A stretch of 64,000 bases of DNA. Origin: Paracoccaceae bacterium (GTDB lineage: Bacteria; Pseudomonadota; Alphaproteobacteria; Rhodobacterales; Rhodobacteraceae). Position numbers and translations under genes: made by a program. Below are positions 26,796-51,169 of this stretch, in pieces (positions within the stretch are counted from its first letter, which is position 1; every line of letters starts with the position of its first letter). The stretch lies in assembly GCA_018223125.1 (NCBI GenBank), contig JAAEZA010000003.1, positions 1-64,000 of the forward strand. Direction: 5' to 3'. The notes below the pieces were generated by a model. The model did no database searches and had not been told where the DNA came from. It saw nothing but the letters and a program-made list of their open reading frames with translations.

Positions 26796-26962
26796 ACGGC
26801 CCCTTCCTGCAAGAAAAACTGCCGTTTTGTCAGCAAGGGGTGTCAGGCACGGCTTTTGCTGACCTCCCCGCCCCTGCCCTTACGACTTTCAGGCGTCGCT
26901 TTGGGCTTTCACAAAACCGCGCTGCACTCTACACACGCCCATCCCCTGTTCTGGAAAAAGTC

Positions 26963-27505
26963 ATGGCGCAAAAATCTACTATTTATAAACTCGAGCTTTC
27001 CGTGTCCGATATGGACCGCCACTATTACGAGACCCACAAGCTGACCGTTGCAAAACACCCGTCGGAAACCGATGAACGGTTGATGGTCCGTCTTGTCGCT
27101 TTCGCGCTGAACGCCAGTGAACAGCTGGAGCTGACCAAAGGCCTGTCAGATGATGACGAGCCGGACATTTGGCAGAAAAGCCTGAGCGGCGAGCTGGAAT
27201 TATGGGTGGCGCTCGGACTGCCGAGCGAGAAGATCGTGCGCCAGTCCTGTAGCAAGGCCAAAGAGGTAATTATCTACAGCTATGGCAGAACCGCCGAAGT
27301 CTGGTGGGAGAAGATCAAGAACAGCACCACCCGTTTTGACAACCTTCGGGTCGTCCACTTTTCCGAAGCGGATACTCAAGAGCTCGCAAAACTGGCAAAT
27401 CGCACGATGAAGTTGCAGGTCAACATTCAGGACGGCGACGTGATGGTCAGCGTAGACGAAAGCATCGTTTACCTGTCCCAGAGCAAATGGAAAGACACCG
27501 CTTAG
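26963..27505 (+). CDS. yaeQ: YaeQ-family protein
   Basis: A 180-residue protein matching YaeQ over its full length (Escherichia coli YaeQ is 181). It starts with MAQKSTIYKLELSVSDMDRHYY; ETHKLTVAKHPSETDERLMVRLVAFALNA and DIWQKSLSGELELWVALGLPS are family signatures of a PD-(D/E)XK-like fold. The biochemical role of YaeQ is unclear (once linked to suppression of RfaH loss). ATG 26963 is chosen because it begins the family alignment. It is monocistronic and convergent with hipA. The 167 bases upstream hold a weak GC-rich dyad after the MFS stop and the presumed promoter. Confidence 0.9.
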   Translation: MAQKSTIYKLELSVSDMDRHYYETHKLTVAKHPSETDERLMVRLVAFALNASEQLELTKGLSDDDEPDIWQKSLSGELELWVALGLPSEKIVRQSCSKAKEVIIYSYGRTAEVWWEKIKNSTTRFDNLRVVHFSEADTQELAKLANRTMKLQVNIQDGDVMVSVDESIVYLSQSKWKDTA

Positions 27506-27515
27506 ACGGATAAAA

Positions 27516-28932
27516 CTAGGGACGGTTTACCGGTACATTGTCGAAATCCGGCACGTCCATATCAAAACCCGCATTTTCTGACAGATGATGGGCCTGTTGC
27601 CGGATCACATCAGACAGCGCCTTCCCGACAGGACGCGGCAGCGCGGCTGCCCGCGCAAGGGCGGCTTTGATGATGCCAGCACTTCGTTGTGCAAGCGGAC
27701 GCCCGAAGCCTCTGGCACCGATTGCCTTTAAAAACAGGTCCAGATCTGCGGCCCCCACATCATCTGCCATTCGGGCCTTACCGATACGAAACGACATCTC
27801 GTGTGTCACGTCCTCCAGCAGGACCGGATCAATGTCATAGGCCGGTGCCAGTTCGGGACGTTGGCCGGTGTAAAGCAGGGCGTGGTTTTTTGCGTGATTG
27901 TCAGAGTTTCCAAGCAGCATATTGGCAATGGTCATCTCGAAAAAGGCAATCCGCGCTGCACCCGGCAGACGGGTGGCGTTCAGCAATTTTCCAACCGCTT
28001 CGGCTGAGAAGGCTCTTGGGGGATTGCCGTTCCGTTCGTATTTCAGGTGCACCCCCAGCCCGAGCGCCTGACAAAAATCCTCTTGGTGGATACGGTGCAC
28101 TTCCTCCCCCTCAAGGCGCCGGTCAAAGCGTGCAACCAATAGTCCCTGAAGATCGCCGGATCCAAGAACGCAGGTCTGCACAGCGGGATGGGACTGGATG
28201 TCAGACATCACCTGCGTGGCGAGATGTTCACGCGCAACGGTGCGCATCTGGCTGGTGCGGGGAACTTTCAGAATATGCGTGGTCGGTGCGCCGCACCCCT
28301 GTTTTGGCAGCGCAAGGCGGCCATCTTCCAGCCGTGTCAGGGCAATTTTCCCCTGTACGCCTGCAAGCGGGGACGGATCGTCGGTTTCGGCCGGAAGGCG
28401 GCGGTTGTCGCGCAGGGACACCATGATGCGTGCAAGCTCTCCGGTAACTTCTATCGGTCCGGAAACGTCCGACAGGTTCAACGGAACGGAAGGTGATCCG
28501 TCCAGCGGATCGTAATCGGCAGACAGGACGCCCGGACGTTTGACCGGCCCGCTGCCTTTTGGCACGCAACTGATCGCACCCGGACAATCCGCCCCGAGAT
28601 GGAACAGCAGCCCGACAATATCCCGTTCTGACAGGCCGTGGCGCTGCATCACCTGATCGCGCATTTCGTTTTCAAACAGCAGGTTGGAAAAGAACCCCCG
28701 CGTGGCAACGTCCCCGAACGGCGCCTCCTGTACGGGCAGGGATGCGGAAACGGGATGGGGCAAAGCGCGTGGCAACGTCCCCGAACGGCGCGTCCTGTAC
28801 GGGCAGGGATGCGGAAACGGGATGGGGCAAAGCGTCTGTGACATATGCAAAAGACATCTCTCCATCCGGCCCCGAAGAAAGCCGGCCGATTGGCTGTTCT
28901 ACCGCTTCAAGATAGACATCAAGCGTGGTCAT
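27516..28932 (-). pseudogene. hipA: HipA-family toxin kinase frameshifted by a 67-bp tandem duplication
   Basis: HipA toxins are Ser/Thr kinases that inactivate glutamyl-tRNA synthetase or other targets and cause growth arrest. The reading frame opens at ATG 28932, overlapping hipB in ATGA, with MTTLDVYLEAVEQPIGRLSS, and would stop after 86 residues at 28672. The rest (GFFSNLLFENEMRDQVMQRHGLSERDIVGLL onward) lies in another frame. It includes LAGVQGKIALT, VARFDRR, the catalytic loop LLGNSDNHAKNHALLY and LAPAYDIDP. The cause is a duplicated 67-mer at 28701-28834; removing one copy gives an intact protein of 449 residues, the usual HipA length. All kinase motifs are preserved, so the lesion looks recent. 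Confidence 0.88.
28701..28834. repeat. 67-bp tandem duplication inside hipA
   Basis: Copies at 28701-28767 and 28768-28834 differ at a single base (28725 C versus 28792 G, which changes Glu to Asp in VQEAPFGD/VQDAPFGD). 67 is one more than a multiple of three, so the duplication breaks the hipA frame. Confidence 0.95.
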
Positions 28933-29165
28933 ATCCTGCCCGCCGTATCCGGTGCATCCACCTGAATCCTCAGCCCGAGATCGCGGCAGAGCTGCAGGAC
29001 CAGACCGATCCGGGCCGTTTCCTTGCCCTGTTCGATTGCCCGGATTGTCGTTCTGGATATACCTGTCTGAAGCGAAAGATCCTCTTGGGTGATCTTCAAT
29101 GCCTTCCGGCTGCGCCGGATCGCCGTCCCGAGTGATTGAGGGTCCGTTATGGTAAATCCGGTCAT
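28929..29165 (-). CDS. hipB: HipB-like antitoxin, Xre-family helix-turn-helix
   Basis: A 78-residue DNA-binding protein with one helix-turn-helix: LGTAIRRSRKALKITQEDLSLQTGISRTTIRAIEQGKETARIGLVLQLCRDLGL. ATG 29165 is preceded by GGAGG five bases away; an upstream ATG at 29198 lacks a site. Its stop overlaps the hipA start (ATGA). In hipBA modules HipB neutralises HipA and represses the operon through operators upstream, and matching repeats lie at 29185-29252. The antitoxin frame is intact although the toxin frame is not. Confidence 0.88.
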   Translation of the reverse strand: MTGFTITDPQSLGTAIRRSRKALKITQEDLSLQTGISRTTIRAIEQGKETARIGLVLQLCRDLGLRIQVDAPDTAGRI

Positions 29166-29184
29166 TAGAGCCTCCGCAATGGGT

Positions 29185-29252
29185 GCGATCGTTTGCATTT
29201 TGTTTAGATATAGGCGCTACCCTGCAAAATGGCAACGATCGCTTTCATTTTG
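29185..29252. promoter_or_regulatory. Probable HipB operators upstream of hipB
   Basis: GCGATCGTTTGCATTTTG (29185-29202) recurs inverted as CAAAATGGCAACGATCGC (29225-29242) with one mismatch. The second site continues into CGATCGCTTTCATTTTG (to 29252), making a 28-bp dyad centred on CGATCG. The sites are 22 bp apart, a layout suited to cooperative binding by an Xre antitoxin dimer. Confidence 0.6.
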
Positions 29253-29534
29253 AAGGATGAGGCCAGTATCCCGCGAAATGGACACGCTCACGCGCAAAAC
29301 AGCGCAAGCGGTCCCGACACCGGTATAGCGCGGGCGTCCCATTGCGCAGTTTCCCCTTGTCATTAACGTGGTGAAAAAATGTGCATACGACCATCGGAAT
29401 GACGCTCGAAACACCAAGTGATCCCACTCCGGTTGTTGAAGCGTCGCATCTGTTGCTGTGCGCGGAAACCCGTGTTGCATTGCAGCAACGACTCGCCGCA
29501 CGTCGCCCATCATTCCGAGGTATTTTTCGCGCCC
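29253..29534. other. Intergenic region upstream of nasT, with one hexaloop hairpin
   Basis: About 280 bases with no convincing gene. The only structure I see is a hairpin at 29474-29489: arms GTTGC/GCAAC around the hexaloop ATTGCA, which has A at position 1 and G at position 4 as in ANTAR target hairpins. A second partner hairpin and a convincing terminator are not visible, so its meaning is uncertain. The nasT promoter must lie here. Confidence 0.4.
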
Positions 29535-30119
29535 ATGCCCAAAGCGCTGAACATCGTTGTTGTGGAAGAAGATCGCGACCGCGCGATAGCAATTGTGGAC
29601 GCCCTCAAAGAGGCCTGCCCCTGCGATGTCTCCATCATCGGCAACTCCAGCGGGTTGGCCCGAAAGATCGCCGCCTGTTTGCCGGACATCGTCCTGATCG
29701 ACGTCGATAACCCGACCCGCGACATGATGGAAGAACTGACTTTGGCCTCCGGTCCGCTAGAGCGCCCCGTGGCAATGTTTGTCTCCGGCGCGGCTGGCGG
29801 TCTGGCGCAGGCGGCAATCGAGGCTGGGTTTTCTGCATATGTTGTTGACGGACTGTCCCCTGATCGGGTCAAGGCCGTCATGGATACGGCAATCGCCCGT
29901 TTCGCAATGACACGCCAGATGCGCAGTGAACTGGCCGAAACACGGCGCGCACTGGAAGAACGCAAGGTCATCGACCGCGCGAAAGGGCTGCTTATGAAAG
30001 CCAAAGGACTCGACGAGGGGGCAGCCTATGCCTTGCTGCGCAAGGCGGCGATGGATCAGGGGAGGCGGGTTGCCGATGTGGCCGAAGCACTGGTCACTGC
30101 GTCGGGGTTGTTGGGATGA
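29535..30119 (+). CDS. nasT: NasT-type response regulator with ANTAR domain
   Basis: A 194-residue antiterminator protein. The N-terminal pseudo-receiver (about 1-120) keeps acidic residues E11/E12/D13 and D56 (DIVLIDVDNP). The C-terminal ANTAR RNA-binding domain (about 137-192) reads ALEERKVIDRAKGLLMKAKGLDEGAAYALLRKAAMDQGRRVADVAEALV. NasT binds two-hairpin leaders of nitrate assimilation operons and prevents termination when NasS releases it on binding nitrate. ATG 29535 gives the usual NasT length. The nasS start overlaps the nasT stop by 4 bases. The leader upstream of nrtA (31389-31499) is the expected target. Confidence 0.93.
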   Translation: MPKALNIVVVEEDRDRAIAIVDALKEACPCDVSIIGNSSGLARKIAACLPDIVLIDVDNPTRDMMEELTLASGPLERPVAMFVSGAAGGLAQAAIEAGFSAYVVDGLSPDRVKAVMDTAIARFAMTRQMRSELAETRRALEERKVIDRAKGLLMKAKGLDEGAAYALLRKAAMDQGRRVADVAEALVTASGLLG

Positions 30120-31288
30120 ATACTGTTACAATTCCCGTGGCCTTCATGCCTTTGGTGGATGCGGCCCCGTTGGTGATCGCGCAGGAAATGGGTTTCGCCG
30201 AAGCGGAAGGACTGGCGCTTGATCTGATCGCTGCACCGTCGTGGTCTTCGGTGCGCGACATGCTGGCCTTTGGCCGCGTGGATGCTGCGCATATGCTGTC
30301 CCCCATGCCGGTTGCAATGGCGATGGGGCTGGGGGGTGTGACCACCGAAATTTCCGCCGTGTCGGTGCTCTCTGTGAACGGCAACGTAATCGGCGTGGGC
30401 AAACGGCTGGAAGAAGAATTGCGCCGCACCGGATACGGGTTTGACTTCTGCGATCCGATGGCCGCCGCCGCGGCACTGGTGCAGGCCAGCCCGCGCCCTA
30501 TCGTGTTTGGCGTGCCCTTCCCGTTTTCAATGCATGTGGAGTTGCTTCGCTACTGGGCACGGGCCTCCGCGCTCGGCACCGAAGGTGTGGCGATCCGCAC
30601 AGTCCCGCCGCCCCTGATGGCAAGCGCGCTGGCCAACGGTGATGTGGATGCGTTTTGCGTGGGTGAACCTTGGGGCTCGGTCTCGGTAGAACAAGGCGTC
30701 GGCGCGCTGTTGTTGCCTGGCAGTTCGATCTGGAGTTTTGCGCCTGAAAAGGTACTGGCCACCCGCACCAACTGGGCCGTAAGCGAGCCGGATTTGCTGG
30801 GGCGGCTTATGCGGGCGGTCTGGAAGGCAGGACGTTGGCTGGCGGACCCGAGCGCGCGCACCGCTGCAAGCGATCTGCTGTCGCGCAAAGCCTATCTTGA
30901 TGTGCCTTCAGAACTCGTTGATCGCGCGCTTTCGGGGCATCTGACTCTGTCGGGTCAGGGAGAGTTGCGACACGTTGAAAGGTTCCTCGAATTCCACGAG
31001 GGCGCGGTTAATTTCCCGTGGCGCAGTCAGGCAAAATGGATTGCACGGAACCTGTCGAAATCCCTTGGCGCCGGTTCCGGTTTCGACTTGGACAAAGTTG
31101 CAAAAGTGTTCCGCACCGACCTGCACCGGATGCATCTTGGCCGGCTGGACCCCGATCTGCCGGGGGCCTCTGAAAAGGTTGAAGGCGCGATTCCCCATGC
31201 CATGCCCGTGGCCTCTGCCGGAGGTGCGTTGACGTTGATGCCGAACCAGTTTTTCGATGGCCAGATCTTTGACCCCGCACTGAAATGA
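30116..31288 (+). CDS. nasS: NasS nitrate/nitrite sensor (NrtA-like, cytoplasmic)
   Basis: A 390-residue protein of the NrtA/CmpA periplasmic-binding fold but without a signal peptide: it starts directly with TIPVAFMPLVDAAPLVIAQEMGFAEAEGL. The nitrate-site regions (SPMPVAMAMGLGG, IVFGVPFPFSMHVELLRYWA, VDAFCVGEPWGSVSVEQG) parallel those of NrtA encoded downstream. Lack of secretion plus coupling to nasT (ATGA overlap) marks it as the sensor that sequesters NasT until nitrate or nitrite binds. It is not a transport receptor. Confidence 0.92.
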   Translation: MNTVTIPVAFMPLVDAAPLVIAQEMGFAEAEGLALDLIAAPSWSSVRDMLAFGRVDAAHMLSPMPVAMAMGLGGVTTEISAVSVLSVNGNVIGVGKRLEEELRRTGYGFDFCDPMAAAAALVQASPRPIVFGVPFPFSMHVELLRYWARASALGTEGVAIRTVPPPLMASALANGDVDAFCVGEPWGSVSVEQGVGALLLPGSSIWSFAPEKVLATRTNWAVSEPDLLGRLMRAVWKAGRWLADPSARTAASDLLSRKAYLDVPSELVDRALSGHLTLSGQGELRHVERFLEFHEGAVNFPWRSQAKWIARNLSKSLGAGSGFDLDKVAKVFRTDLHRMHLGRLDPDLPGASEKVEGAIPHAMPVASAGGALTLMPNQFFDGQIFDPALK

Positions 31289-31388
31289 ACTTTTTTGCAG
31301 CTTGTTTTCAATGGGTTAAGGAAGAATTCCGGCAGTGGCAAAATTTTAACTTGAGTTCCCGCTGCATTGCAGCATACTCGGCAATACG

Positions 31389-31499
31389 GTCACAACGGTG
31401 TGGCACGTAACGAATTTTCTTCCCTATGACAGGGAAACTTTGAGCAAGGTCGCTCACTCTCTGCCGATGTATGTCGGTGGTTAGTGATCGGCCTTTTTT
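31389..31499 (+). promoter_or_regulatory. ANTAR-type antitermination leader of the nrt-nir-nas operon
   Basis: P1: arms GTCAC/GTGGC (31389-31393, 31400-31404) around hexaloop AACGGT. P2: arms TGAGC/GCTCA (31441-31445, 31452-31456) around hexaloop AAGGTC. Both loops have A1 and G4, the ANTAR rule. A terminator follows: GGTCGCTCACT (31448-31458) can pair with AGTGATCGGCC (31483-31493; one wobble, one mismatch), enclosing CCGATGTATGTCGG, and six T follow (31494-31499). P2 and the terminator share bases and are mutually exclusive. NasT binding P1-P2 should therefore free transcription into nrtA (start 31552). Confidence 0.85.
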
Positions 31500-31551
31500 G
31501 CGTTTTACCGGTCTTCTTCCTGTTCGACCGGCAACCCCCAAAGGATACAAC

Positions 31552-32919
31552 ATGAGACGACTTCTCTTAGGACTCGCCGCCACAACCGCACTGATCAGCC
31601 AGGCCTCTGCCGAGCTGTTGGACCTTGAAAAGGACGAGCTGAAATTCGGTTTCATCAAGCTGACAGACATGGCCCCTCTCGCAGTGGCCTACGAACAGGG
31701 TTACTTCCTTGACGAAGGTCTTTTCGTAACGCTGGAGGCGCAGGCCAACTGGAAAGTGCTGCTTGACGGTGTGATCGACGGCCAGCTTGACGGGGCACAT
31801 ATGCTGGCAGGCCAGCCGCTGGCCGCAACGATCGGCTATGGCACCGAGGCCCATATCGTAACCCCGTTTTCCATGGACCTGAACGGAAACGGTATCACGG
31901 TTTCAAACGAGGTGTGGGACATGATGCGCCCGCATATTCCATCCATGGACGACGGCCGCCCGCAGCATCCGATTTCCGCACAGGCGCTTGTTCCGGTGAT
32001 CGAAGACTTCAATGCCAAGGGCGAGTCTTTCAACATGGGAATGGTCTTTCCGGTGTCCACCCACAATTACGAGCTGCGCTACTGGCTGGCGGCAGGCGGG
32101 ATCAATCCGGGCTATTACAGCCCAGAAAACATCACCGGCCAGATCGGCGCGGATGTGTTCCTGTCCGTAACCCCCCCGCCCCAGATGCCCGCAACGCTGG
32201 AGGCGGGGACCATTCACGGATATTGCGTGGGCGAACCGTGGAACCAGCAGGCGGTGTTCAAAGGGATCGGCGTGCCGGTCATCACCGACTACCAGCTTTG
32301 GAAAAACAACCCTGAAAAAGTGTTCGGCCTGACAGACGGTTTCGTTGAAGAAAACCCAAACACAACCAAAGCCGTTGTTCGCGCGCTGATCCGTGCAGCA
32401 ATGTGGCTGGATGAAAACGACAACGCCAACCGTCCCGCTGCCGTAGAAATCCTCAGCCGTCCGGAATATGTCGGTGCGGATCAGGATGTGATCGCGAATT
32501 CCATGACCGGCTTTTTCGAGTTTGAAAAAGGGGACAAGCGTGACATCCCCGATTTCAACGTCTTTTTCCGCCACAACGCCACCTATCCCTATTACTCGGA
32601 CGCGATCTGGTATCTGACGCAGATGCGCCGCTGGGGCCAGATTGCCGAGCCAAAGTCCGACGACTGGTTCAAGGAAGTTGCCGCAAGCGTCTATCGCCCT
32701 GACATCTATCTGGAGGCTGCACGCTCTCTGGTAGAGGACGACCTAGCGAATGAAGCGGACTTTCCTTTTGACAGCGACGGCTTCAAGGCCCCGACACCGG
32801 CGGCGGATATTATTGATGGCATTCCTTTCGATGGCCGCTCCCCGAACGCCTATCTGGAAAGCCTGCCAATCGGCCTGAAGGGTACGCAAACCGTCGTTGG
32901 CGATCAGGTTCAAGGCTAG
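31552..32919 (+). CDS. nrtA: Nitrate ABC transporter substrate-binding protein
   Basis: A 455-residue periplasmic receptor with a signal peptide of about 20 residues ([20 protein letters not shown]). The NrtA/CmpA fold begins [28 protein letters not shown]. Nitrate-site segments include [35 protein letters not shown] and [21 protein letters not shown] 31552 has AAAGGA upstream. It is the first gene behind the ANTAR leader; a GC-rich stem-loop (32932-32953) separates it from nrtB. Confidence 0.93.
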
Positions 32920-32931
32920 CTGCCACACACG

Positions 32932-32953
32932 GGGGGCGCAGCGCCGCGCCCCC
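32932..32953 (+). terminator. Intercistronic stem-loop between nrtA and nrtB
   Basis: Perfect 8-bp arms GGGGGCGC (32932-32939) and GCGCCCCC (32946-32953), 6-base loop, no T-run. It is likely an mRNA-protecting hairpin giving more receptor than permease. Confidence 0.65.
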
Positions 32954-32981
32954 TCCCCAGTATTACGCAGGAGACAGGTCG

Positions 32982-34058
32982 ATGAGCACAGCCGATCCAG
33001 ATTTCAACACAGTTGCCGCGCGCGAAGCCCGCCGCGAGAGGCTGTTCACCCGAATTAATTCCGCCGACAAATGGTTTCAGGTCATTGGTCTGTCCTGGCT
33101 GACCCCGATCCTGAAAGCGGCAGCCGGTGACAACCCCAAAGCGCAGATCGGTGACATCTGGCGTCTTTTGGGCGTCCCGCTGCTGGCGATTGTCGGGTTT
33201 CTGATGCTCTGGGCGGCGCTGGCCCCCACTGTACAAACGTCCCTCGGCGCGATCCCCGGCCCTGCCCAAGTCTGGAGCGAAGCTGTAAACCTGCACAAGG
33301 ACGCGCAGGCCAAAGCAGAGTCGCGGGCAAAATTCGAAACGCAGGTCGCAACCCTGAACGAACGCCGCGTCGAACAGGGCAAGGAACCGGTCGAGCGGGC
33401 CTACACCGGCGCCCCGAGTTATTACAGCCAGATCTGGACTTCGATCAAAACAGTCTTCTTCGGGTTTCTGATCGCCAGCGCTGTTGCGATCCCGCTGGGT
33501 ATTGCAGCGGGTCTCTCCCCCACTGCCAACGCCGCGCTAAATCCGGTCATTCAAATTTTCAAACCTGTTTCACCACTGGCATGGCTGCCAATTGTAACCA
33601 TGGTAGTGTCGGCCGTTTACACCAACCCCGACGGGCTGTTTGCCAAAAGCTTTCTGACCTCTGCGATCACGGTGACGCTCTGCTCGCTCTGGCCGACGCT
33701 GATCAACACAGCCCTGGGCGTGTCAAGCATCGACAAGGATCTGGTCAACGTTTCCAAGGTGCTCAAGATGAACACCTATACCAAGATCACCAAACTGGTC
33801 CTGCCCTCTGCCCTGCCCCTGATCTTCACAGGCCTGCGGCTTAGCCTCGGTGTCGGCTGGATGGTGCTGATAGCGGCGGAAATGCTGGCGCAAAATCCCG
33901 GTCTGGGTAAATTCGTCTGGGATGAATTCCAGAACGGATCTTCCAGTTCGCTCGCCAAGATCATTGTTGCGGTTCTTACCATCGGCATTATCGGCTTCCT
34001 GCTCGACCGTGTGATGTATGCGCTGCAATCGCTTTTCACCTTCACGAACAACCGGTGA
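32982..34058 (+). CDS. nrtB: Nitrate ABC transporter permease
   Basis: A 358-residue inner-membrane permease. The N-terminal ~60 residues are cytoplasmic and hydrophilic; one span lies near 66-86. A long charged insert (about 98-150) is followed by the binding-protein-dependent transport domain with its EAA-like segment SSIDKDLVNVSKVLKMNTYTKITKLVLPSALPLIFTGLRLSLGVGWMVLI. NrtB proteins of about 280 residues lack the extended N-terminus and insert, which are typical of alphaproteobacterial versions. Its stop overlaps the GTG start of the ATPase gene. Confidence 0.92.
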   Translation: MSTADPDFNTVAAREARRERLFTRINSADKWFQVIGLSWLTPILKAAAGDNPKAQIGDIWRLLGVPLLAIVGFLMLWAALAPTVQTSLGAIPGPAQVWSEAVNLHKDAQAKAESRAKFETQVATLNERRVEQGKEPVERAYTGAPSYYSQIWTSIKTVFFGFLIASAVAIPLGIAAGLSPTANAALNPVIQIFKPVSPLAWLPIVTMVVSAVYTNPDGLFAKSFLTSAITVTLCSLWPTLINTALGVSSIDKDLVNVSKVLKMNTYTKITKLVLPSALPLIFTGLRLSLGVGWMVLIAAEMLAQNPGLGKFVWDEFQNGSSSSLAKIIVAVLTIGIIGFLLDRVMYALQSLFTFTNNR

Positions 34059-35743
34059 GCGACATGAGCATTCTGAAATTCGAAGGTGTTTCGCAAAGTT
34101 TTGGCAGCGGCACCCATGCCACCCATGTGTTGAAAAACATCAATCTGGACGTGCAGGAAGGTGAATTTCTGGTCCTTCTGGGGTTCTCTGGAACAGGGAA
34201 AACCACGCTGATCAACCTGATGGCGGGGCTGGAGCGGCCGAGCAAGGGCAAAGTGACCTTCCGCGGCAAGCCCGTCACCGGCCCCGGACCGGAACGCGGT
34301 GTGATCTTCCAAAGCTATTCGCTGATGCCCTGGCTGACGGTCAGCGGTAATGTGGGGCTGGCGGTGGACACTGTTTTCCCCGGTCTTTCCAAGGCAGAAA
34401 AGGCAGAAAAAACCGCATATTTCGTTAATATGGTCGGGTTGGGCCACGCTGCCAACCGGCGCCCTGCCGAACTGTCGGGCGGAATGCGGCAGCGGGTGAA
34501 CGTGGCGCGGGCACTGGCAATGAACCCCGAAGTGCTGCTGCTGGATGAACCGCTCAGTGCGCTGGACGCCCTGACCCGCGCAAATCTTGCGGATGAGATC
34601 GAGCACATCTGGCAGGCCGACAAAAAGACCTGCGTTCTGATAACAAACGATGTGGACGAGGCGATCATACTGGCCGACCGGATCATCGCGCTCAATCCGG
34701 ACGGGACATTGGGAGAGGAATTCAACGTCACCATCCCGCGCCCCCGTGACCGGATGGATATGAATACCAACGAAACCTTCAAGCGGCTTCGGGCGGATGT
34801 CACCAAATACCTTATGGATGTCGGGATCGAGGCCAAGGTCGAAGGCACCCGCCTTTTGCCGGATGTGACCCCGATCCACGGGCTGCCTGCCGCTGTGTCC
34901 AAGGCCCAAAAAGGCGCGATCCGGCAGCGTTATCTGGATTTCAGCCAGTTGCACAAAGTCTATCCGACACCCAAAGGGCCACTGACTGTTGTGGAGGATT
35001 TCGATCTTAAGGTCGAACGGGGCGAATTCATTTCCCTGATCGGCCATTCCGGCTGCGGAAAATCGACCGTGCTGACAATGGCCGCCGGTCTGAACGAAAT
35101 TTCCCAAGGGGGGATTGTGCTGGACGGGATGCACGTCGAAGGGGCCGATCCGGAACGCGCTGTTGTGTTCCAGTCCCCCAACCTGTTCCCGTGGCTTTCG
35201 GCAAAAGAGAACGTCGCAATCGGTGTGGACAAGGTCTACCCCCGCGCCAGTCAGGCAGAACGGCAGGACGTTGTCGAATACTACCTCGAACGGGTTGGTC
35301 TGGGCGATGCCATGGAAAAACCGGCCAGCGATCTGTCCAACGGAATGCAGCAACGGGTCGGTATCGCACGGGCCTTCGCGCTCAGCCCCAAACTGTTGTT
35401 GCTGGACGAACCCTTCGGGATGCTCGACAGCCTGACACGCTGGGAGTTGCAGGAAGTTCTGATGGAAGTCTGGTCGCGCACCAAAGTCACCGCGATTTGT
35501 GTGACCCATGATGTGGACGAAGCGATCCTGCTGGCCGACCGCGTGGTGATGATGACCAACGGACCGCAAGCAACCATTGGTAAGATCACCAATGTCGATC
35601 TGCCCCGTCCGCGCACCCGCAAAGCCCTGCTGCAACACCCGGACTATTATGCCTACCGGCAGGAGGTGCTCGATTTCCTTGAAGAATACGAGCATGGCGC
35701 AAAGCCGAAACAGCCCACCCCGAAACCCATTGCGGCGGAATGA
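34055..35743 (+). CDS. Nitrate ABC transporter ATPase, two fused ABC domains (NrtCD type)
   Basis: A 562-residue protein with two complete ATP-binding cassettes. Domain 1 (about 1-260) has Walker A GFSGTGKTT, signature LSGGMRQRVNVARAL and Walker B VLLLDEPLSALDA. Domain 2 (about 300-545) has Walker A GHSGCGKST, signature LSNGMQQRVGIARAF and Walker B LLLLDEPFGMLDS. In cyanobacteria NrtC and NrtD are separate; here the two are one chain. Unlike cyanobacterial NrtC there is no NrtA-like regulatory tail. The start is GTG 34055 overlapping the nrtB stop; ATG 34064 is an alternative. Confidence 0.92.
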   Translation: MSDMSILKFEGVSQSFGSGTHATHVLKNINLDVQEGEFLVLLGFSGTGKTTLINLMAGLERPSKGKVTFRGKPVTGPGPERGVIFQSYSLMPWLTVSGNVGLAVDTVFPGLSKAEKAEKTAYFVNMVGLGHAANRRPAELSGGMRQRVNVARALAMNPEVLLLDEPLSALDALTRANLADEIEHIWQADKKTCVLITNDVDEAIILADRIIALNPDGTLGEEFNVTIPRPRDRMDMNTNETFKRLRADVTKYLMDVGIEAKVEGTRLLPDVTPIHGLPAAVSKAQKGAIRQRYLDFSQLHKVYPTPKGPLTVVEDFDLKVERGEFISLIGHSGCGKSTVLTMAAGLNEISQGGIVLDGMHVEGADPERAVVFQSPNLFPWLSAKENVAIGVDKVYPRASQAERQDVVEYYLERVGLGDAMEKPASDLSNGMQQRVGIARAFALSPKLLLLDEPFGMLDSLTRWELQEVLMEVWSRTKVTAICVTHDVDEAILLADRVVMMTNGPQATIGKITNVDLPRPRTRKALLQHPDYYAYRQEVLDFLEEYEHGAKPKQPTPKPIAAE

Positions 35744-35747
35744 GAAC

Positions 35748-38186
35748 ATGAAACAGAAACAGAAAATCGTTGTGATCGGTGCTGGCATGGCGTCGGGTCG
35801 CGTGATTGAAAATCTGGTCGAAACCGCACTGGACGACTTTGACATTACGCTTTTCAACGCCGAACAGCGCGGTAACTACAACCGCATCATGCTCAGCCCT
35901 GTGCTGTCGGGCGAAAAAACCTATGAAGATATCGTCACCCATGACGATGACTGGTATGCGACCCACGGCGTGAATTGCCGCTTCGGCGAACATGTTGTCA
36001 GGATTGATGCGGCGCAAAAAACAGTGGCAGGGCAGAACGGCCCCGTGTCTTATGACAAACTGGTCATCGCCACAGGCTCTGCGCCTTTTATCATTCCGGT
36101 GCCCGGCAAGGATCTGCCCGGAGTGATCACCTACCGCGATCTGGATGACACCAACGCGATGATAAAAGCATCACAGAAAGGCGGCAGTGCGGTTGTCATT
36201 GGCGGCGGATTGCTGGGGCTTGAGGCGGCAGCTGGGCTGGCGGAGCGGGGTATGACTGTAACGGTTGTGCACCTGATGGGTCACCTGATGGAGCGGCAAC
36301 TGGACGAAGCCGCGGGATATTTGCTGCGCCGCGATCTGGAGCGTCGTGGCATTACGATCCGCACCCAAGCCTCTACCAAGGCGATTATCGGAGACGGTCG
36401 CGCCGAAGCTGTGCTGCTTGACACAGATGAATCCCTGCCCGCTGATCTGGTGGTTATGGCTGTCGGCATTCGTCCCGAAACACGGCTTGCAACCGATGCA
36501 GGTCTGGATGTGGCCCGTGGTATTCAGGTCAATGCACAGATGCAGACTTCGGATCCGGACATCTTTGCTGTCGGGGAATGTGTGGAATTCGACGGCAATC
36601 TCTTCGGGCTGGTCGCCCCCCTTTATGATCAGGCAAGGGTGCTGTCCCAAACCCTTATGGGGCAGGGGGCGGCTTTTGTGGTCAAGGATACAGCCACCAA
36701 GCTGAAGGTGACAGGTTGCGATCTGTTCAGCGCCGGTGATTTTGCCGATGGTGAAGGCCGCGAGGATATCGTCCTGCGCGATCCCGCCCGCGGCGTTTAC
36801 AAGCGCCTTGTGATTGAAGAGGATCGTCTGATCGGTGCCGTTATGTATGGCGACACGGCCGACGGAAACTGGTTTTTCCAGTTGATCAAGGACGCAACCG
36901 ATATTGAGGACATGCGGGAAACCCTGATCTTCGGGCCGTCGGCACAGGGGGGCGACACCGTGGACCCGCTCTCAGCCGTTGCAGCATTGCCGCGTGATGC
37001 GGAAATCTGTGGCTGCAACGGCATTTGCAAAGGCACCATTGTGGATGCAATCGAAGGGGGTGCGGGCGACCTTGGGACTGTGCGCGCCACTACCAAAGCC
37101 AGCGCGTCTTGCGGGACTTGTACAGGGCTTGTCGAACAGCTGTTGCAGGTAACGCTCGGGGATGACTTCCAGATGCCGACCGCGCAACCGGTCTGCGGGT
37201 GTTGCGCGTTGACCCACGAAGACTTGCGCCGCCTGATCAAAAGTCAGGAACTGAAAAGTCAGGAAGCGGTCTGGCAGGAACTGGGGTGGAAAACCCGCAA
37301 CGGCTGCCATGTCTGTCGTCCGGCGGTAAACTACTATCTTCTGGCGGACTGGCCGCTGGAATACCGCGACGATCCGCAAAGCCGTTTCGTCAACGAACGC
37401 AAACACGCCAATATCCAGAAAGACGGTACCTTTTCCGTTGTTCCGCGCATGTGGGGCGGGATCACCAATCCGGCAGAATTGCGTGCCATTGCAGATGCTG
37501 CCGACAAATACGACGTCCCGACCGTCAAGGTGACAGGCGGCCAGCGGATCGATCTGCTGGGCGTGAAAGGCGAAGACCTTCCCCTTATCTGGGCCGATCT
37601 GAACAAGGCGGGCTTGGTTTCGGGCCATGCCTATTCCAAGGGACTGCGCACGGTCAAAACCTGTGTCGGGTCCGACCATTGCCGCTTTGGCACACAGGAC
37701 AGCACCGGACTCGGGATCAAGCTGGAACAGATCCTCTGGGGATCATGGACACCCCATAAGGTAAAGCTGGGTGTTTCCGGCTGCCCGCGCAATTGTGCCG
37801 AAGCCACTTGCAAGGATATCGGCATCATCTGCGTTGACAGCGGGTATCAGGTCAGCGTCGCCGGTGCTGCCGGCATGGACCTGAAGGAAACCGAACCCCT
37901 TGGCGATGCGGCCAGCGAACAGGAAGCCATCGACCTGACTATCGCCTTTGTCCAGCTCTACCGCGAAAACGCGAAATACCTTGATCGCGCCTATAAATGG
38001 GTCGCCAAAGTGGGGCTTGATTGGGTCAAATCCCAAGTTGTTGACGACCTGAACGAACGCGCGCGTTTGATCGAAGCTTTTGAACTCAGCCAGTCTGTTT
38101 ACCGGCGCGATCCTTGGGCCGAGGGGGCCAAAGCCGCGCCGTCCTTCCAGCCGCTGGCAGATCTTACACTGGAGGCGGCAGAATGA
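35748..38186 (+). CDS. nirB: Assimilatory nitrite reductase [NAD(P)H] large subunit
   Basis: An 812-residue cytoplasmic enzyme reducing nitrite to ammonium. It has an N-terminal FAD/NAD(P)H module (KIVVIGAGMASGRVIENL, then VVIGGGLLGLEAAAGLAERGM) and a central BFD-like [2Fe-2S] domain (ICGCNGICKG ... ASCGTCTG). A further cysteine stretch (CGCCALTHEDL) precedes the sulfite/nitrite reductase ferredoxin half-domain. The C-terminal sirohaem/[4Fe-4S] motif is TCVGSDHCRFG plus GCPRNCAEATCKD. ATG 35748 gives the family length. Its stop overlaps nirD in ATGA. Sirohaem is supplied by cysG at the end of the operon. Confidence 0.95.
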   Translation: MKQKQKIVVIGAGMASGRVIENLVETALDDFDITLFNAEQRGNYNRIMLSPVLSGEKTYEDIVTHDDDWYATHGVNCRFGEHVVRIDAAQKTVAGQNGPVSYDKLVIATGSAPFIIPVPGKDLPGVITYRDLDDTNAMIKASQKGGSAVVIGGGLLGLEAAAGLAERGMTVTVVHLMGHLMERQLDEAAGYLLRRDLERRGITIRTQASTKAIIGDGRAEAVLLDTDESLPADLVVMAVGIRPETRLATDAGLDVARGIQVNAQMQTSDPDIFAVGECVEFDGNLFGLVAPLYDQARVLSQTLMGQGAAFVVKDTATKLKVTGCDLFSAGDFADGEGREDIVLRDPARGVYKRLVIEEDRLIGAVMYGDTADGNWFFQLIKDATDIEDMRETLIFGPSAQGGDTVDPLSAVAALPRDAEICGCNGICKGTIVDAIEGGAGDLGTVRATTKASASCGTCTGLVEQLLQVTLGDDFQMPTAQPVCGCCALTHEDLRRLIKSQELKSQEAVWQELGWKTRNGCHVCRPAVNYYLLADWPLEYRDDPQSRFVNERKHANIQKDGTFSVVPRMWGGITNPAELRAIADAADKYDVPTVKVTGGQRIDLLGVKGEDLPLIWADLNKAGLVSGHAYSKGLRTVKTCVGSDHCRFGTQDSTGLGIKLEQILWGSWTPHKVKLGVSGCPRNCAEATCKDIGIICVDSGYQVSVAGAAGMDLKETEPLGDAASEQEAIDLTIAFVQLYRENAKYLDRAYKWVAKVGLDWVKSQVVDDLNERARLIEAFELSQSVYRRDPWAEGAKAAPSFQPLADLTLEAAE

Positions 38187-38512
38187 ACTGGATCGACGTA
38201 GGTGCCATAGAGGACATTCCCCTGCGCGGGGCCCGCAAGATCAAGACAGCCCTTGGCTGTGTCGCGATCTTCCGGACCGGCCTGCAGGAAGTCTTTGCAG
38301 CATCAAACCTGTGTCCACATAAGGGCGGGCCCCTGTCTGAAGGGATCATCCACGGTCAGTCCGTAACCTGTCCCTTGCACAACTGGGTGTTCGACCTGAA
38401 CAGCGGGCAGGCACAGGGCGAAGATGCTTCAATTCCCACTTTCCCCGTTGCAGTACGAGACGGCCGCATTTTGCTCGACGGCACCGAACTGGCCAAGCGG
38501 AGCGCGGCGTGA
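38183..38512 (+). CDS. nirD: Nitrite reductase small subunit, Rieske-type
   Basis: A 109-residue Rieske [2Fe-2S] protein with both ligand pairs intact: C44-x-H46 (NLCPHKGG) and C63-x2-H66 (CPLHNW). Many stand-alone NirD subunits lack these ligands, so this one probably carries a real cluster. The ATG at 38183 overlaps the nirB stop (ATGA), and its stop overlaps the nasA start region. It is likely an electron carrier or structural partner for NirB, and conceivably also for NasA. Confidence 0.93.
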   Translation: MNWIDVGAIEDIPLRGARKIKTALGCVAIFRTGLQEVFAASNLCPHKGGPLSEGIIHGQSVTCPLHNWVFDLNSGQAQGEDASIPTFPVAVRDGRILLDGTELAKRSAA

Positions 38513-41142
38513 TGGACGGGACGTCTGCACCCGCGATCCGCTCCACCTGCCCCTATTGCGGGGTCGGCTGCGGTGTGCTGCTGCGCCCCGACGGACAGGG
38601 TGGGCTTGACGTGCAGGGCGATCCGGATCACCCCGCAAACTTCGGGCGTTTGTGTTCCAAAGGATCCGCCCTTGGCGAAACCGTCGGACTAAAGGGCCGC
38701 CTGCGGGCACCCCTTATGGACGGGAAGGTTTCGGATTGGGACACAGCGCTGCAACATGTGGCTGACAGGTTTTCACAGTCAATCGCAGAACACGGCCCCG
38801 ACAGTGTTGCCTTCTATGTGTCCGGCCAGATGCTGACCGAAGATTACTATGTCGCCAACAAACTGATGAAGGGGTTCATCGGGTCGGCGAATATCGACAC
38901 AAATTCACGGCTTTGTATGGCGTCATCCGTCGCGGGACACAAACGTGCCTTTGGCAGCGACACCGTTCCGGGAACCTATGAAGATATTGACGAAGCCGAT
39001 CTGGTGGTGCTGGTCGGGTCCAACCTTGCATGGTGCCATCCGGTCCTGCACCAGCGCCTGCTGGCCGCCCGAAAAGCCCACGGTACAAGGATCGTTGTAA
39101 TAGATCCGCGCCGGACCGCCAGTTGCCACGAAGCAGACATGCATCTTGCCTTGCAGCCCGGTTCGGATGTGGCCCTGTTCAACCGCCTGCTGGTCGCGCT
39201 TCACGAAAAGGGCGCGGTGGATCAGGACTATCTGACCCGTACCACAGGGTTTGACACCGCCCTTGATGCGGCCCGTCAGGACACCCCGTCACAAACCGGA
39301 TTGTCCGAAGCCGAAATTGACGCGTTTTGCGATCTTTGGGCACGCACCCGAAAGGTTGTGACGGTCTATTCCCAAGGGGTGAACCAGTCCACTTCGGGGG
39401 CGGACAAGGTCAATGCCATCCTGAACTGTCATCTGGCCACGGGGCGTATCGGCAAGGCGGGCATGGGGCCGTTTTCGGTCACCGGCCAGCCCAACGCAAT
39501 GGGAGGACGCGAAGTCGGTGGGCTTGCCAATATGCTGGCCTGCCATCTTGATCTGGAAAACGCTGATCATCGCTCTGCCGTACGGCAGTTCTGGGAGGCG
39601 CCAGCAATACCGGACAGGGCAGGACTGAAGGCTGTTGATATGTTCCGCGCTGTGGCCAGCGGACAGATCAAGGCACTGTGGATCATCCACACCAATCCCG
39701 CCGTCACCATGCCCGAGGCCGACAGCGTGCGCGATGCCATCGCAAACTGCCCCTTTACGGTCGTCAGCGACATCACCGGCCAGACAGACACGGCGCGGCT
39801 GGCGGATGTCCTGCTGCCCGCCACCGCCTGGGCGGAAAAGGAGGGCACCGTCACCAATTCCGACCGCACCATCAGCCGCCAGCGCCGCGCCCTGCCTGCC
39901 CCCGGAACAGCACGCCCCGACTGGGATATCCTAGCCGAAGTCGGCAGGCGCATGGGTTTTGTTAAGGCTTTTGATTATGCCAACGAGGCTGAGATTTTCC
40001 GTGAACACGCGGCGTTGTCAGGCATCGCAGGGCAGTTCGGACGGGATTTCGACATCTCCGGACTGGCGGCAATTTCGGACTCCGGTTATGCGGATCTTGA
40101 ACCACAATCCTGGCCGGTATCCAAGTCCCGCCGTGGTGGCCGGTTCTTTGCCGAAGGGGGTTTTTATCACGCTGATGGCAAGGCCCGACTGCTGCCGGTT
40201 GGGTGGCAACCCCCTGCCGCGCGAACGACCCGACGGTTTCCCTACCGTCTGAACACCGGACGCACGCGGGATCAGTGGCACACAATGACGCGCTCCGGCC
40301 TAAGCCCGCGGCTGTCGGCCCATCTGCCAGAGCCATTTCTTGAAATTCACCCCGATGACGCGGGCGATCTCGGCGTGGGTGCCGCTGACCTGCTGCGCAT
40401 CACCAGCCCCACGGGCACTGCCATCCTGCGTGCGCTGATCACCGACGCGGTGCAGCGGGGGCAGGTTTTTGCGCCCATTCACTGGACCGGCGAAACCGCA
40501 CCCTCTGGACGGGTGGATGCGTTGGTTGCTGCGGCCTGTGATCCGGTGTCAGGCCAACCCGAAAGCAAGGCGAGCGTGGTAGATGTAAAACCCTACCGCG
40601 CAGGCTGGTACGGTTTTGCGGTTTCAAGCGGGCCGATGGCATTGAACAGCGACTATTGGGCACTGGCACGCACAACACAAGGCTATCGCGCAGAGCTGGC
40701 CGGTACAGACACTGTTGCGGACTGGGTGAGCGAAGCACAGCGCCTGTTTGGCACCACCGATTGCGAAGTGTCTTCCGTCACAGATTCCAAACACGGAACC
40801 GCCCGCATCGTGCTGAGCAAGGACGGCGTGTTAAACGGCGCGTTGTTTGTGTCGACAACTCCGGTGGCCGTGATGCGCGATTATCTGACCTCCCTGCCCG
40901 GCACACCCGCACCGGATGCCCTGTCGGGACGCAACAGAAGCGATGCGCCAAACCCCGGCCCGATCCTTTGCTCCTGTTTTGGCATCGGTGTGAACACCAT
41001 TGTTAACGCCATCGAGCTGCAAGGATTACTGAGTGTGGATCACGTAGGCGAGGCCCTTGGAGCCGGCACAAATTGCGGGTCTTGCAGGCCGGAAATCGCC
41101 ACCTTGTTACAGGGCCTCAACCAGAAGGAAGCCGCCCAATGA
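38512..41142 (+). CDS. nasA: Assimilatory nitrate reductase catalytic subunit
   Basis: A molybdenum bis-MGD enzyme of 876 residues reducing nitrate to nitrite in the cytoplasm (no Tat signal). The N-terminal [4Fe-4S] ligands are C13, C16, C20 and C48 (CPYCGVGCG ... LCSKGSALGE). The Mo ligand is the Cys of NSRLCMASSV (C135). The molydopterin dinucleotide-binding domain is about 610-740. The C-terminal BFD-like [2Fe-2S] domain ends CSCFGIGVNTIVNAI ... NCGSCRPEI. ATG 38512 shares one base with the nirD stop; GTG 38509 immediately before it is an alternative. Confidence 0.94.
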   Translation: MDGTSAPAIRSTCPYCGVGCGVLLRPDGQGGLDVQGDPDHPANFGRLCSKGSALGETVGLKGRLRAPLMDGKVSDWDTALQHVADRFSQSIAEHGPDSVAFYVSGQMLTEDYYVANKLMKGFIGSANIDTNSRLCMASSVAGHKRAFGSDTVPGTYEDIDEADLVVLVGSNLAWCHPVLHQRLLAARKAHGTRIVVIDPRRTASCHEADMHLALQPGSDVALFNRLLVALHEKGAVDQDYLTRTTGFDTALDAARQDTPSQTGLSEAEIDAFCDLWARTRKVVTVYSQGVNQSTSGADKVNAILNCHLATGRIGKAGMGPFSVTGQPNAMGGREVGGLANMLACHLDLENADHRSAVRQFWEAPAIPDRAGLKAVDMFRAVASGQIKALWIIHTNPAVTMPEADSVRDAIANCPFTVVSDITGQTDTARLADVLLPATAWAEKEGTVTNSDRTISRQRRALPAPGTARPDWDILAEVGRRMGFVKAFDYANEAEIFREHAALSGIAGQFGRDFDISGLAAISDSGYADLEPQSWPVSKSRRGGRFFAEGGFYHADGKARLLPVGWQPPAARTTRRFPYRLNTGRTRDQWHTMTRSGLSPRLSAHLPEPFLEIHPDDAGDLGVGAADLLRITSPTGTAILRALITDAVQRGQVFAPIHWTGETAPSGRVDALVAAACDPVSGQPESKASVVDVKPYRAGWYGFAVSSGPMALNSDYWALARTTQGYRAELAGTDTVADWVSEAQRLFGTTDCEVSSVTDSKHGTARIVLSKDGVLNGALFVSTTPVAVMRDYLTSLPGTPAPDALSGRNRSDAPNPGPILCSCFGIGVNTIVNAIELQGLLSVDHVGEALGAGTNCGSCRPEIATLLQGLNQKEAAQ

Positions 41143-42086
41143 GCCTTGCCGAACATGTGCGCACGCTGGGGCGCGGTACGGGACGGTCCCGTTCCCTGAC
41201 ACAGGATGAAGCCCATGATGCAATGCGCGACATGCTGGACCCTGACACCGCACCCGAAGCCATAGGGGCGCTGTTGATGTTGTTACGTATGAAGGGCGAG
41301 ACCGCGCAGGAAATCGCAGGACTGGTCTCTGCCGCGCAAAGCACTTTGCCTGTCTTGCCACAGGTTGATCTCGACTGGCCCAGCTATGCCGCCGGACGGA
41401 CCCGCGGTGCACCGTGGTTCCTGATGTCGGCCAAACTGGTCGCGCAGGCGGGCCATAAAGTCCTGCTCCACGGCTGGAACGGTCAGGACGTTAAAATCCG
41501 CAAAGGGTTGCAGGAGGCTGGCATCGGGACGGCCGAAACGCTGGACGCCGCAGCGCAGATGTTGGAACGGGACGGCATCGCCTATCTGCCCTTGGAAGTC
41601 GCGCATCCCGCCCTGTTCCATTTGTTAAACCTGCGGTCGGTTCTGGGATTGCGATCCTGCATTAACACGGTCTGCCGCATGCTCAACCCCGGCGCGGCAC
41701 CTGCCAGTGTGCAGGGTGTATTTCACCCGTCCTACCGGCTGTTACAAGCAGATGCCGCGGCACTTCTGGGCTGGGAGAACCTGACCGTAATCAAAGGCGG
41801 TGGCGGGGAATTCGAACGCCATCCCGCAAAAGATATAGCAGGTTTCGGCCTTCGCGCCGGTGTCCCGTGGGACGGCATCTATCCGGCGATCCGCCCTGAA
41901 ACACGCCGCCTTAACGAACCACAGGACGCGGCGACAAAGCCGTGGGACCCGACCGCCCCGACAGATTTCGAGGCCGATGTCATCACCGGAACTGCGGCAG
42001 CGGCGCTTGACAGTCTCGGGGTGAAGGACAGCGCAGAGTTCGCCCGATCCCTTTGGGACACACGCCCCTTTGGCAAAGCAGCATAA
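41139..42086 (+). CDS. TrpD2/YbiB-like glycosyltransferase-family protein
   Basis: A 315-residue protein of the anthranilate phosphoribosyltransferase fold. The helical N domain carries SLTQDEAHDAMRDMLDPDTAPEAIGALLMLLRMKGET. The PRPP-like loop region is degenerate (KVLLHGWNGQDVKIRKGLQEAGIG replaces the usual glycine-rich GTGGD). A late KGGGGEFERHP segment follows. It is closest to the YbiB/TrpD2 group, which binds nucleic acid rather than making tryptophan precursors. It overlaps nasA (ATGA) and precedes cysG, so it is firmly inside the nitrate operon. Its function there is unknown; a role in cofactor or regulation is possible. Confidence 0.75.
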   Translation: MSLAEHVRTLGRGTGRSRSLTQDEAHDAMRDMLDPDTAPEAIGALLMLLRMKGETAQEIAGLVSAAQSTLPVLPQVDLDWPSYAAGRTRGAPWFLMSAKLVAQAGHKVLLHGWNGQDVKIRKGLQEAGIGTAETLDAAAQMLERDGIAYLPLEVAHPALFHLLNLRSVLGLRSCINTVCRMLNPGAAPASVQGVFHPSYRLLQADAAALLGWENLTVIKGGGGEFERHPAKDIAGFGLRAGVPWDGIYPAIRPETRRLNEPQDAATKPWDPTAPTDFEADVITGTAAAALDSLGVKDSAEFARSLWDTRPFGKAA

Positions 42087-50724: not shown

Positions 50725-50862
50725 CTGCATAGAATAGAACCGGTTATAAAATTTCTTCCGGTCAACGCACTCATAGATTTGGAAAAACGTTGCAGACAAC
50801 TAAATTGTTTCCTTTTCAAATTAGTCACCCGCTTGTAGCATTTAGACACTTCGGTCCGAGCG

Positions 50863-51030
50863 GTTCGCCGTCTGGTTTAAAGGGAACGTGGTCCGGTCCT
50901 CTGACCAACTCCACGACTGCCCCCGCAACTGTAGGCGGAGAGCGAAGCCGGTATATGCCACTGTCACGCATCGCGTGGTGGGAAGGTCCGGCCAAGCATC
51001 GACCCGCGAGTCAGGAGACCTGCCGAGGTT
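50863..51030 (+). promoter_or_regulatory. Cobalamin riboswitch (adenosylcobalamin aptamer)
   Basis: The conserved core runs in order: AAAGGGAACGTGGT, CCACGACTGCCCCCGCAACT, GTAGGCGGAGAGC, the B12 box GCCACTG (50957-50963), GGGAAGGTCC and CGAGTCAGGAGACCTGCC (to 51024). This matches the AdoCbl riboswitch used upstream of btuB. The expression platform lies in 51031-51169, where GCGGA-GCT-TCCGC and GGTG-TTTT-CACC hairpins can form. It should shut down btuB and the following B12 ABC genes when cobalamin is plentiful. Exact ends are approximate. Confidence 0.92.
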
Positions 51031-51169
51031 TTCACCCTGTCCGGGCGCGAGGGGCGTCAGGGCTGCGGAGCTTCCGCTTGTGGTGTTTTCACCGTCTGCG
51101 GGGGGCTTTTCTCTCAAATGACACGTCAACGTCTATCGTCCCGATTGGGGCGTATCCGAGGGTTTATCT

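Follow-up and report, generated by a model that had tools for sequence, protein, structure and literature searches.

The 263-nt gap between nasS and nrtA in the window (the whole 64,000-nucleotide stretch of Paracoccaceae DNA that was analysed) very probably carries a NasT-dependent, nitrate-responsive transcription antitermination leader. Leaders of this kind are known, having been established in P. denitrificans and Bradyrhizobium diazoefficiens (PMC5424462, PMC3795266, and PMC6759348, in the available portions of these papers). The case made here is built on the anatomy of the sequence, the mutual exclusion of two folds, conservation among relatives, covariation in the first hairpin (P1), and the presence of a single cognate ANTAR gene. 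A third hairpin, placed between P1 and the antiterminator hairpin (P2), sets the architecture of the leader apart from those described in the literature searched; it may act as a spacer or as a further contact for NasT.

The nas locus

The proposed reader of the leader is encoded by nasT (29535-30119, + strand; the start codon is our choice), the product of which has a C-terminal ANTAR domain (PF03861, E 2.8e-21). In a profile search, it was the sole ANTAR match across the window's own 3.9-Mb assembly, and its relatives of solved structure include 1s8n, a putative antiterminator, and NasR (4akk). The next gene, nasS (30116-31288, +), encodes an NrtA-like protein (PF13379, E 2e-60) similar, among solved-structure sequences, to the nitrate-binding NrtA and to the CmpC regulatory domain. 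By analogy with P. denitrificans (PMC5424462 and PMC3795266, available text), NasS is the expected nitrate/nitrite sensor that would keep NasT inactive.

The gap following nasS contains four RNA elements and leads to nrtA (31552-32919, +; PF13379, E 1.4e-91), the first gene of the operon proposed to be controlled. Downstream lie an nrtB-type permease and an nrtCD-type ATPase (32982-35743, +; TIGR01183 under and TIGR01184 over the cut-off), followed by nirB, nirD, and a molybdopterin oxidoreductase (35742-41142, +; TIGR02374 and TIGR02378 over the cut-off). The oxidoreductase matches NasC-type and Fdh models solely under the cut-off and is likely the assimilatory nitrate reductase. Close behind it is a glycosyl-transferase-family gene (41136-42086, +; PF02885, PF00591), which may be part of the nitrate operon. 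Upstream of nasT, a HipA-like gene (27516-28865, - strand; PF07804, PF13657) is convergent with a YaeQ gene (26840-27505, +). Elsewhere in the window, a cobalamin riboswitch was found at 50835-51041 (+), scoring 118.7 bits where the gathering score is 31.5.

Anatomy and folding of the leader

P1 (31386-31408, +), delineated by folding and covariation, has a core in which GTCAC (31389-31393) pairs with GTGGC (31400-31404) around the loop AACGGT (31394-31399); three extra pairs, 31386-31388 with 31406-31408, extend the stem beyond a bulged A31405. In P2 (31441-31456, +), the folds pair TGAGC (31441-31445) with GCTCA (31452-31456) around the loop AAGGTC (31446-31451). Both hexaloops are closed by a C:G pair. 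The intrinsic terminator (31446-31499, +) consists, according to the folds, of a 5' arm at 31446-31458, a 3' arm at 31483-31495, and a T-run at 31494-31499. Its pairing joins 31446-31452 and 31454-31458 with 31483-31487 and 31489-31495 and encloses an inner hairpin at 31461-31480. The loop and 3' arm of P2 are therefore also the terminator 5' arm, and in folding, P2 and the terminator are mutually exclusive.

The order in which the two structures appear was followed in folds of the nascent chain. With 3' ends at 31458, 31463, 31470, and 31478, the chain folds into P1, the middle hairpin, and P2; when it ends at 31485, P2 is one pair short, and at 31492 and 31499, the terminator stem stands in place of P2. 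The full-length fold of 31384-31505 reaches -47.3 kcal/mol with the terminator, compared with -36.1 with P2 enforced, and the fold of 31380-31505 has a z of -4.46 against shuffles. From the T-run to the nrtA ATG there are 52 nt. A simple terminator scan of 29000-33000 returned three sites vs 4.7 in shuffles, i.e., no excess; one of the three is a shorter stem, 31473-31492, ahead of the same T-run.

The preliminary description had proposed two hexaloop hairpins with A1 and G4, NasT and NasS encoded directly upstream, and the loop and 3' arm of P2 as an alternative terminator 5' arm followed by six T. The hexaloops are confirmed by both the sequence and the folds, the regulators by the PF03861 and PF13379 matches, and the six T are those of 31494-31499, while the alternative pairing is borne out by folding with and without the P2 constraint, in which the two structures exclude each other. 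Its coordinates were right to about 2 nt (the loop and 3' arm of P2 actually span 31446-31456). It had also called the leader complete, which holds for the two ANTAR hairpins and the terminator and misses a conserved third hairpin at 31420-31436.

Conservation among relatives

We compared 180 regions downstream of NasS, including the window's own and with some genomes represented twice. They comprise 11 of the 30 loci of a same-genus search (the window's included), 29 loci and 60 fetched regions drawn from 155 genomes with a NasS match, and 80 of 568 confirmed loci. These last 80 carry genus names that we take to be those of Rhodobacteraceae in the wide sense, or are named plainly "Alphaproteobacteria".

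A letter-pair scan sought a hexaloop hairpin of at least four pairs, the loop and 3' arm of which can pair with an arm farther downstream that leads into a T-rich tail. Hairpins with A1 and G4 that overlap a terminator in this way were present in 173/180 regions, vs 5.1 (sd 2.0) in shuffles, and a few of these picks are P1 or another loop, not P2. Of the 15 remaining letter combinations at loop positions 1 and 4, none was found in more than 8/180 regions. The scan recovers the ANTAR signature without presupposing it. A P2-specific pattern located P2 in 176/180 regions and found none in the remaining four (L011, L012, L114, and L182). Since the P1 and P2 patterns required A1/G4, the A1/G4 counts derived from them hold partly by construction, and the fair test is the letter-pair control. 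An earlier scan was stricter in that it demanded perfect stems in P1 and P2 as well as the terminator; it selected 73 of 100 regions, including a few wrong picks. Because these relatives are not mutually independent, all expectations from shuffles overstate significance somewhat. Four of the 176 relatives (L004, L047, L075, and L190) have G at loop position 1 of P2, which makes them natural probes of the strictness of the ANTAR rule.

Among the 176 regions with P2, 166 also have P1 and 161 pass a spacing filter; these reduce to 139 distinct and 131 non-redundant leaders. In these 131 leaders, the top-ranked of 2850 column pairs is the P1 pair 31391-31402, which occurs as GC (56), AT (29), CG (26), TG (9), GT (7), and TA (4), and P1 pairs occupy ranks 1-4. 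Ranks 5 and 6 are non-pairing columns; therefore, shared ancestry shows in the ranking. RNAalifold, run on the MAFFT alignment of the 131 leaders, recovered P1 and P2 and did not recover the middle hairpin.

A 45-sequence MAFFT alignment including the window gave double-sided changes in 12 of the 18 pairs of the three-hairpin structure, with a covariation score of 0.429 vs 0.183 in shuffled alignments and at most 0.144 with slid partners. The C:G closing pair is kept in 44/45 sequences in P1 and 45/45 in P2. The preliminary description had looked to compensatory changes in both hairpins. For P1, this expectation was matched by double-sided changes in 7/8 pairs. In P2, two of the five pairs never vary and one has a double change; being nearly invariant, P2 is little testable by covariation, and such invariance is expected for a stem that is also obliged to fit the terminator.

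It had further proposed a search with an ANTAR covariance model; with models built from leaders of this class, the search succeeded. We used two such models, R1, which includes the window, and R2, built from 30 relatives without it. R2 matched the leader with E 5e-11 in a small set and E 1.9e-9 across the whole own genome, where its next-best site had 0.09; for R1, the values across the genome were 6.6e-10 and 2.5. With next-best matches at E 2.5 for R1 and 0.09 for R2, no second NasT target was found in the genome. A weak match at 32928-33005, between nrtA and nrtB, was likewise discarded as an ANTAR site: it scores 14-16 bits, is G+C-rich, and shows by eye no pair of ANTAR hexaloops. In Rfam, no ANTAR-type family matches the leader; the hits over it are confined to two microRNA families, with E values of 0.17 and 9 that are at the level of chance.

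Across 148 relatives, R1 found matches with E<=0.05 in 32 genomes, 25 of which reach E<=1e-3. A NasS homologue is present in 23 of these 25; in the remaining two, G032 and G113, an ANTAR gene lies no more than 1.5 kb from the match. Three of the seven weaker genomes (E 0.002-0.042) have a NasS homologue (G071, G094, and G105). The other four matches look like chance, because an ANTAR gene is absent from three of these genomes and lies on a different contig in the fourth.

In G032 (contig C2, 564311-564723; L223 and L265), about 180 nt separate the end of the ANTAR domain from the leader, too little for a nasS-sized gene. The NasS search in this genome returned an NrtA-like match downstream only, that is, a NasT switch without an adjacent NasS. 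Within the window's genus, 32 other genomes were searched for NasS: one has it at 97% identity and seven at 37-46% (one partial), two have weak or NrtA-like matches only, and 22 have none, while another genus reaches 80%. This patchy distribution suggests transfer or repeated loss.

The middle hairpin

The linker between the P1 and P2 stems is 36 nt long, and 17 of these nucleotides form the middle hairpin (31420-31436, +), with the stem TTCCCT/AGGGAA and the loop ATGAC. It is supported by folding, an excess of linker hairpins, and moderate covariation. To the 131 leaders we added 28 of 40 further regions (those in which P1 and P2 were found; 12 were without) and Rhodobacter sp. CZR27 (L240), for a total of 160 linkers. 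Hairpins of at least four Watson-Crick pairs occur in 132/160 linkers, vs 32.8 expected from shuffles. An A1/G4 hexaloop hairpin is present in 19/160 (0.9 expected), and in 10/160 it is closed by C:G (0.2 expected). Examples are CCCGC-AAGGAC-GCGGG in CZR27 and CCGC-AARGAT-GCGG in L288, L289, L291, and L298. The commoner form is a seven-base loop (95/160), which has G at position 4 in 88 cases, A at position 5 in 66, C or T at position 6 in 83, and A at position 1 in 56; positions 2, 3, and 7 are more variable. The window's middle loop is not a clean ANTAR loop, since it has T at position 1.

Taken alone, the middle helix covaries to a moderate degree. Indeed, its covariation score of 0.222 exceeds the shuffled value of 0.141 (reached in 0/500 shuffles), and double-change cells number 23 vs 10.8 (1/500), while further pair types show no clear excess (10 vs 9.2; 190/500). 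Since CCC/GGG is repetitive, the helix slid by -1 still scores 0.194. Among the 2850 column pairs, two from this helix take places 10 and 15, beneath some unpaired columns that probably reflect clades. Support for the middle hairpin comes mainly from the linker-hairpin excess. In two Rhizobiaceae (L254 and L255), the R2 model found no leader; by eye, the loop distance from P1 to P2 is 47 nt there, if 3-bp hairpins of the form GAC-AYCGAC-GTC are taken as P2. In the literature searched, which included the available text of PMC5424462, PMC3795266, PMC3369931, PMC6759348, PMC8164766, PMC7496416, PMC12542648, PMC5596199, and PMC10888616, we found no description of a third hairpin; such leaders may have been listed earlier.

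Predicted promoter and PhaR-type palindromes

A putative -35 element, TTGAGT (31351-31356, +), and a putative -10 element, CATACT (31373-31378, +), precede P1. They lie near the places where, counted from the P1 loop, the relatives have a TTG-rich peak (-45 to -43) and a stretch rich in A/T (-21 to -17). From these sequences, the transcription start is predicted at about 31384-31386, upstream of P1, which would place P1 at the 5' end of the transcript. A strict sigma-70 consensus scan of 29000-33000 returned no promoter.

Between the two putative elements, and overlapping the -10, is a PhaR-type palindrome, CGCTGCATTGCAGCA (31360-31374), which agrees at 15/15 positions with YGCYGCRNYGCRGCR. 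The sequence CTGCATTGCAG fits the S. meliloti PhaR motif NYGCRNYGCRN (from the available text of PMC12542648), and the palindrome resembles PhaR boxes (TGC-rich, YGCRNYGCR) in general. A second palindrome (29473-29487; 14/15) lies 55 nt upstream of nasT. Sites with at least 13/15 agreement with YGCYGCRNYGCRGCR are found upstream of P1 in 93/130 leaders vs 6.7 expected, and upstream of nasT in 25/80 usable regions vs 7.4 expected. The looser YGCRNYGCR occurs in 78/131 leaders (14.4 expected) and CTGCN3GCAG in 29/131 (0.38 expected). Measured from the P1 loop, the positions cluster at about 27-28 and 80-82 nt upstream, and others lie in between.

In its own genome, the perfect palindrome occurs at 13 places and the pattern read backwards at none. 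One copy sits 38 nt after a phaC ORF and about 650 nt ahead of the PhaR (PF07879) domain, which puts a 15-mer of this class between phaC and phaR. Others are upstream of the crotonyl-CoA carboxylase/reductase gene and of urtA, and another is about 750 nt upstream of the gene for 3-oxoacid CoA-transferase subunit B. Not every copy need be a site, because 7/13 are located within an open frame, whether real or spurious, of 90 codons or more. Judging from the motif and the gene neighbours, we regard 31360-31374 as a candidate PhaR site; none of the literature searched reports PhaR at nas promoters.

Comparison with known systems

In P. denitrificans, NasS senses nitrate/nitrite, the NasS-NasT complex dissociates, and NasT binds the nasA leader RNA (PMC3795266 and PMC5424462, available text). 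As in the window, nasT-nasS is described directly upstream of the leader, whereas the first gene is nasA there and nrtA here. Two hairpins, HI and HII, are placed 137 bp and 91 bp upstream of nasA in the text seen of PMC5424462. Changing HI severely lowered expression and its replacement cost growth on nitrate (PMC3795266, PMC5424462), whereas induction was almost unimpaired by a 3-base change in HII (PMC5424462).

We compared these accounts with the leader of P. denitrificans HAMBI_2443 (L239, outside the 160 linkers). As in the window, P1 is there, as an AACGGC hexaloop hairpin. Unlike in the window, the hairpin at P2 spacing has a GACGAT loop, with G1, and by eye no T-run follows. The middle hairpin, TCGC-AATGAT-GCGG, has an AATGAT hexaloop, whereas the published accounts speak, in their available parts, of two hairpins (PMC3795266, PMC5424462). 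The loops of P1, the middle hairpin, and the G1 hairpin start 155, 130, and 107 nt before the nasA ATG. With the arms taken into account, HI probably corresponds to P1 and HII to the hairpin at the P2 position, which leaves the middle hairpin over; HAMBI_2443 differs from the strain of PMC5424462. That the HII mutation spared induction would fit NasT on P1 and the middle hairpin, and equally well a mutation that weakens the terminator.

More in general, an ANTAR dimer reads A1 and G4 of two C:G-closed hexaloops and holds P2 against the terminator (PMC3369931 and PMC7496416, available text). The window shares with the two-hairpin motif of EutV, NasR, and AmiR targets (Ramesh 2012, PMC3369931) the two short A1/G4 hexaloop hairpins and a P2 that overlaps the terminator, and with the NasR SELEX results the C:G closing pair (PMC7496416). 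It has every RNA feature of an ANTAR leader except a short linker. Indeed, its 36-nt linker with a third hairpin differs from the 5-12 nt of the E. faecalis eut leaders, in which a 14-nt linker already harmed induction (PMC3369931), and from the 2-25 nt of a published actinobacterial curation. In the available text of these sources, a short linker characterises the described ANTAR members, and nothing there makes it a requirement for NasT leaders. In Bradyrhizobium diazoefficiens, NasT antitermination is reported for nos and nap, and NasT-type hairpins are predicted before nirA and other genes (PMC6759348, available text). NasT affects many genes there, while a single strong model match was found here.

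Proposed mechanism and alternatives

NasS sensing, NasT binding, and antitermination in the cell would proceed as in the studied relatives. Transcription would start just ahead of P1. With no nitrate or nitrite, NasS would hold NasT, the longer terminator hairpin would displace P2, and RNA polymerase would halt at the T-run before nrtA. In the presence of nitrate or nitrite, freed NasT would bind P1 and P2 at their A1/G4 hexaloops and keep P2 closed; the terminator could then not form, and the nrtABCD-nirBD-nasA operon would be transcribed. As part of the leader, the middle hairpin would fold up the 36-nt linker and may give NasT a third contact.

The promoter-like arrangement and the PhaR-type palindrome directly upstream, together with the NtrBC control of nas genes reported in P. 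denitrificans (PMC5424462, available text), could also be read as control of the nas operon at initiation only, with an ordinary intrinsic terminator and fortuitous hairpins behind the promoter. This is contradicted by the strong A1/G4 control, the P1 covariation, and the co-occurrence of the leader with NasT/NasS, and we consider it very improbable. More improbable still is a small-molecule riboswitch or a translation-level control element unrelated to ANTAR, given the lack of an Rfam match, the 52 nt between T-run and nrtA ATG, the ANTAR loop signature, and the cognate gene. NasT-dependent antitermination is thus the reading we retain for the leader as a whole.

For the middle hairpin, the readings are less settled. 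It could be a mere spacer: with the linker shortened, a NasT dimer would reach both P1 and P2, and the loop itself would go unrecognised. The distance from the P1 to the P2 loop is 46-52 nt in 146/166 leaders, by eye Rhizobium sp. AB2/73 (L255) keeps a similar spacing with an unrelated loop on its linker hairpin, and T occupies position 1 of the window's own seven-base loop. Against a mere spacer stand the strict A1/G4 hexaloops in 19/160 linkers and the make-up of the seven-base loops, in which G occupies position 4 in 88/95 and C or T position 6 in 83/95, with more variation at positions 2, 3, and 7; we hold the spacer reading possible, somewhat short of an even chance. The same strict hexaloops, above all the ten closed by C:G (L240, L288, L289, L291, and L298 among them) and that of P. 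denitrificans L239, would instead fit a third contact for NasT, offering alternative or cooperative sites, and freed NasT is reportedly about hexameric in P. denitrificans (PMC3795266 or PMC5424462, available text). Such a contact is rather doubtful, as 141/160 linkers, the window's included, are without a strict A1/G4 hexaloop hairpin and A stands at position 1 in only 56/95 seven-base loops. An RNA-polymerase pause hairpin was also considered.

A wider reading joins these elements: alphaproteobacterial NasT leaders would be three-hairpin ANTAR RNAs, and a PhaR site at the same promoter would gate transcription of the switch. The middle hairpin would be a true A1/G4 hexaloop in Rhodobacter-type leaders and in many others a derived loop of seven bases, often [A/G]NNGAY plus one; oligomeric NasT would grip P1 and the middle hairpin or P1 and P2, and carbon storage would gate how often the nitrate switch is transcribed. 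Taken as a whole, this is unlikely, and we offer it as a tentative proposal.

The 131 non-redundant aligned NasT leaders, with their clean P1 covariation, are sufficient to build an RNA family model. An element present in most of these leaders is missing from the two-hairpin view of ANTAR targets. If the palindrome is bound by PhaR, nitrate assimilation would be tied to polyhydroxybutyrate storage in these bacteria.
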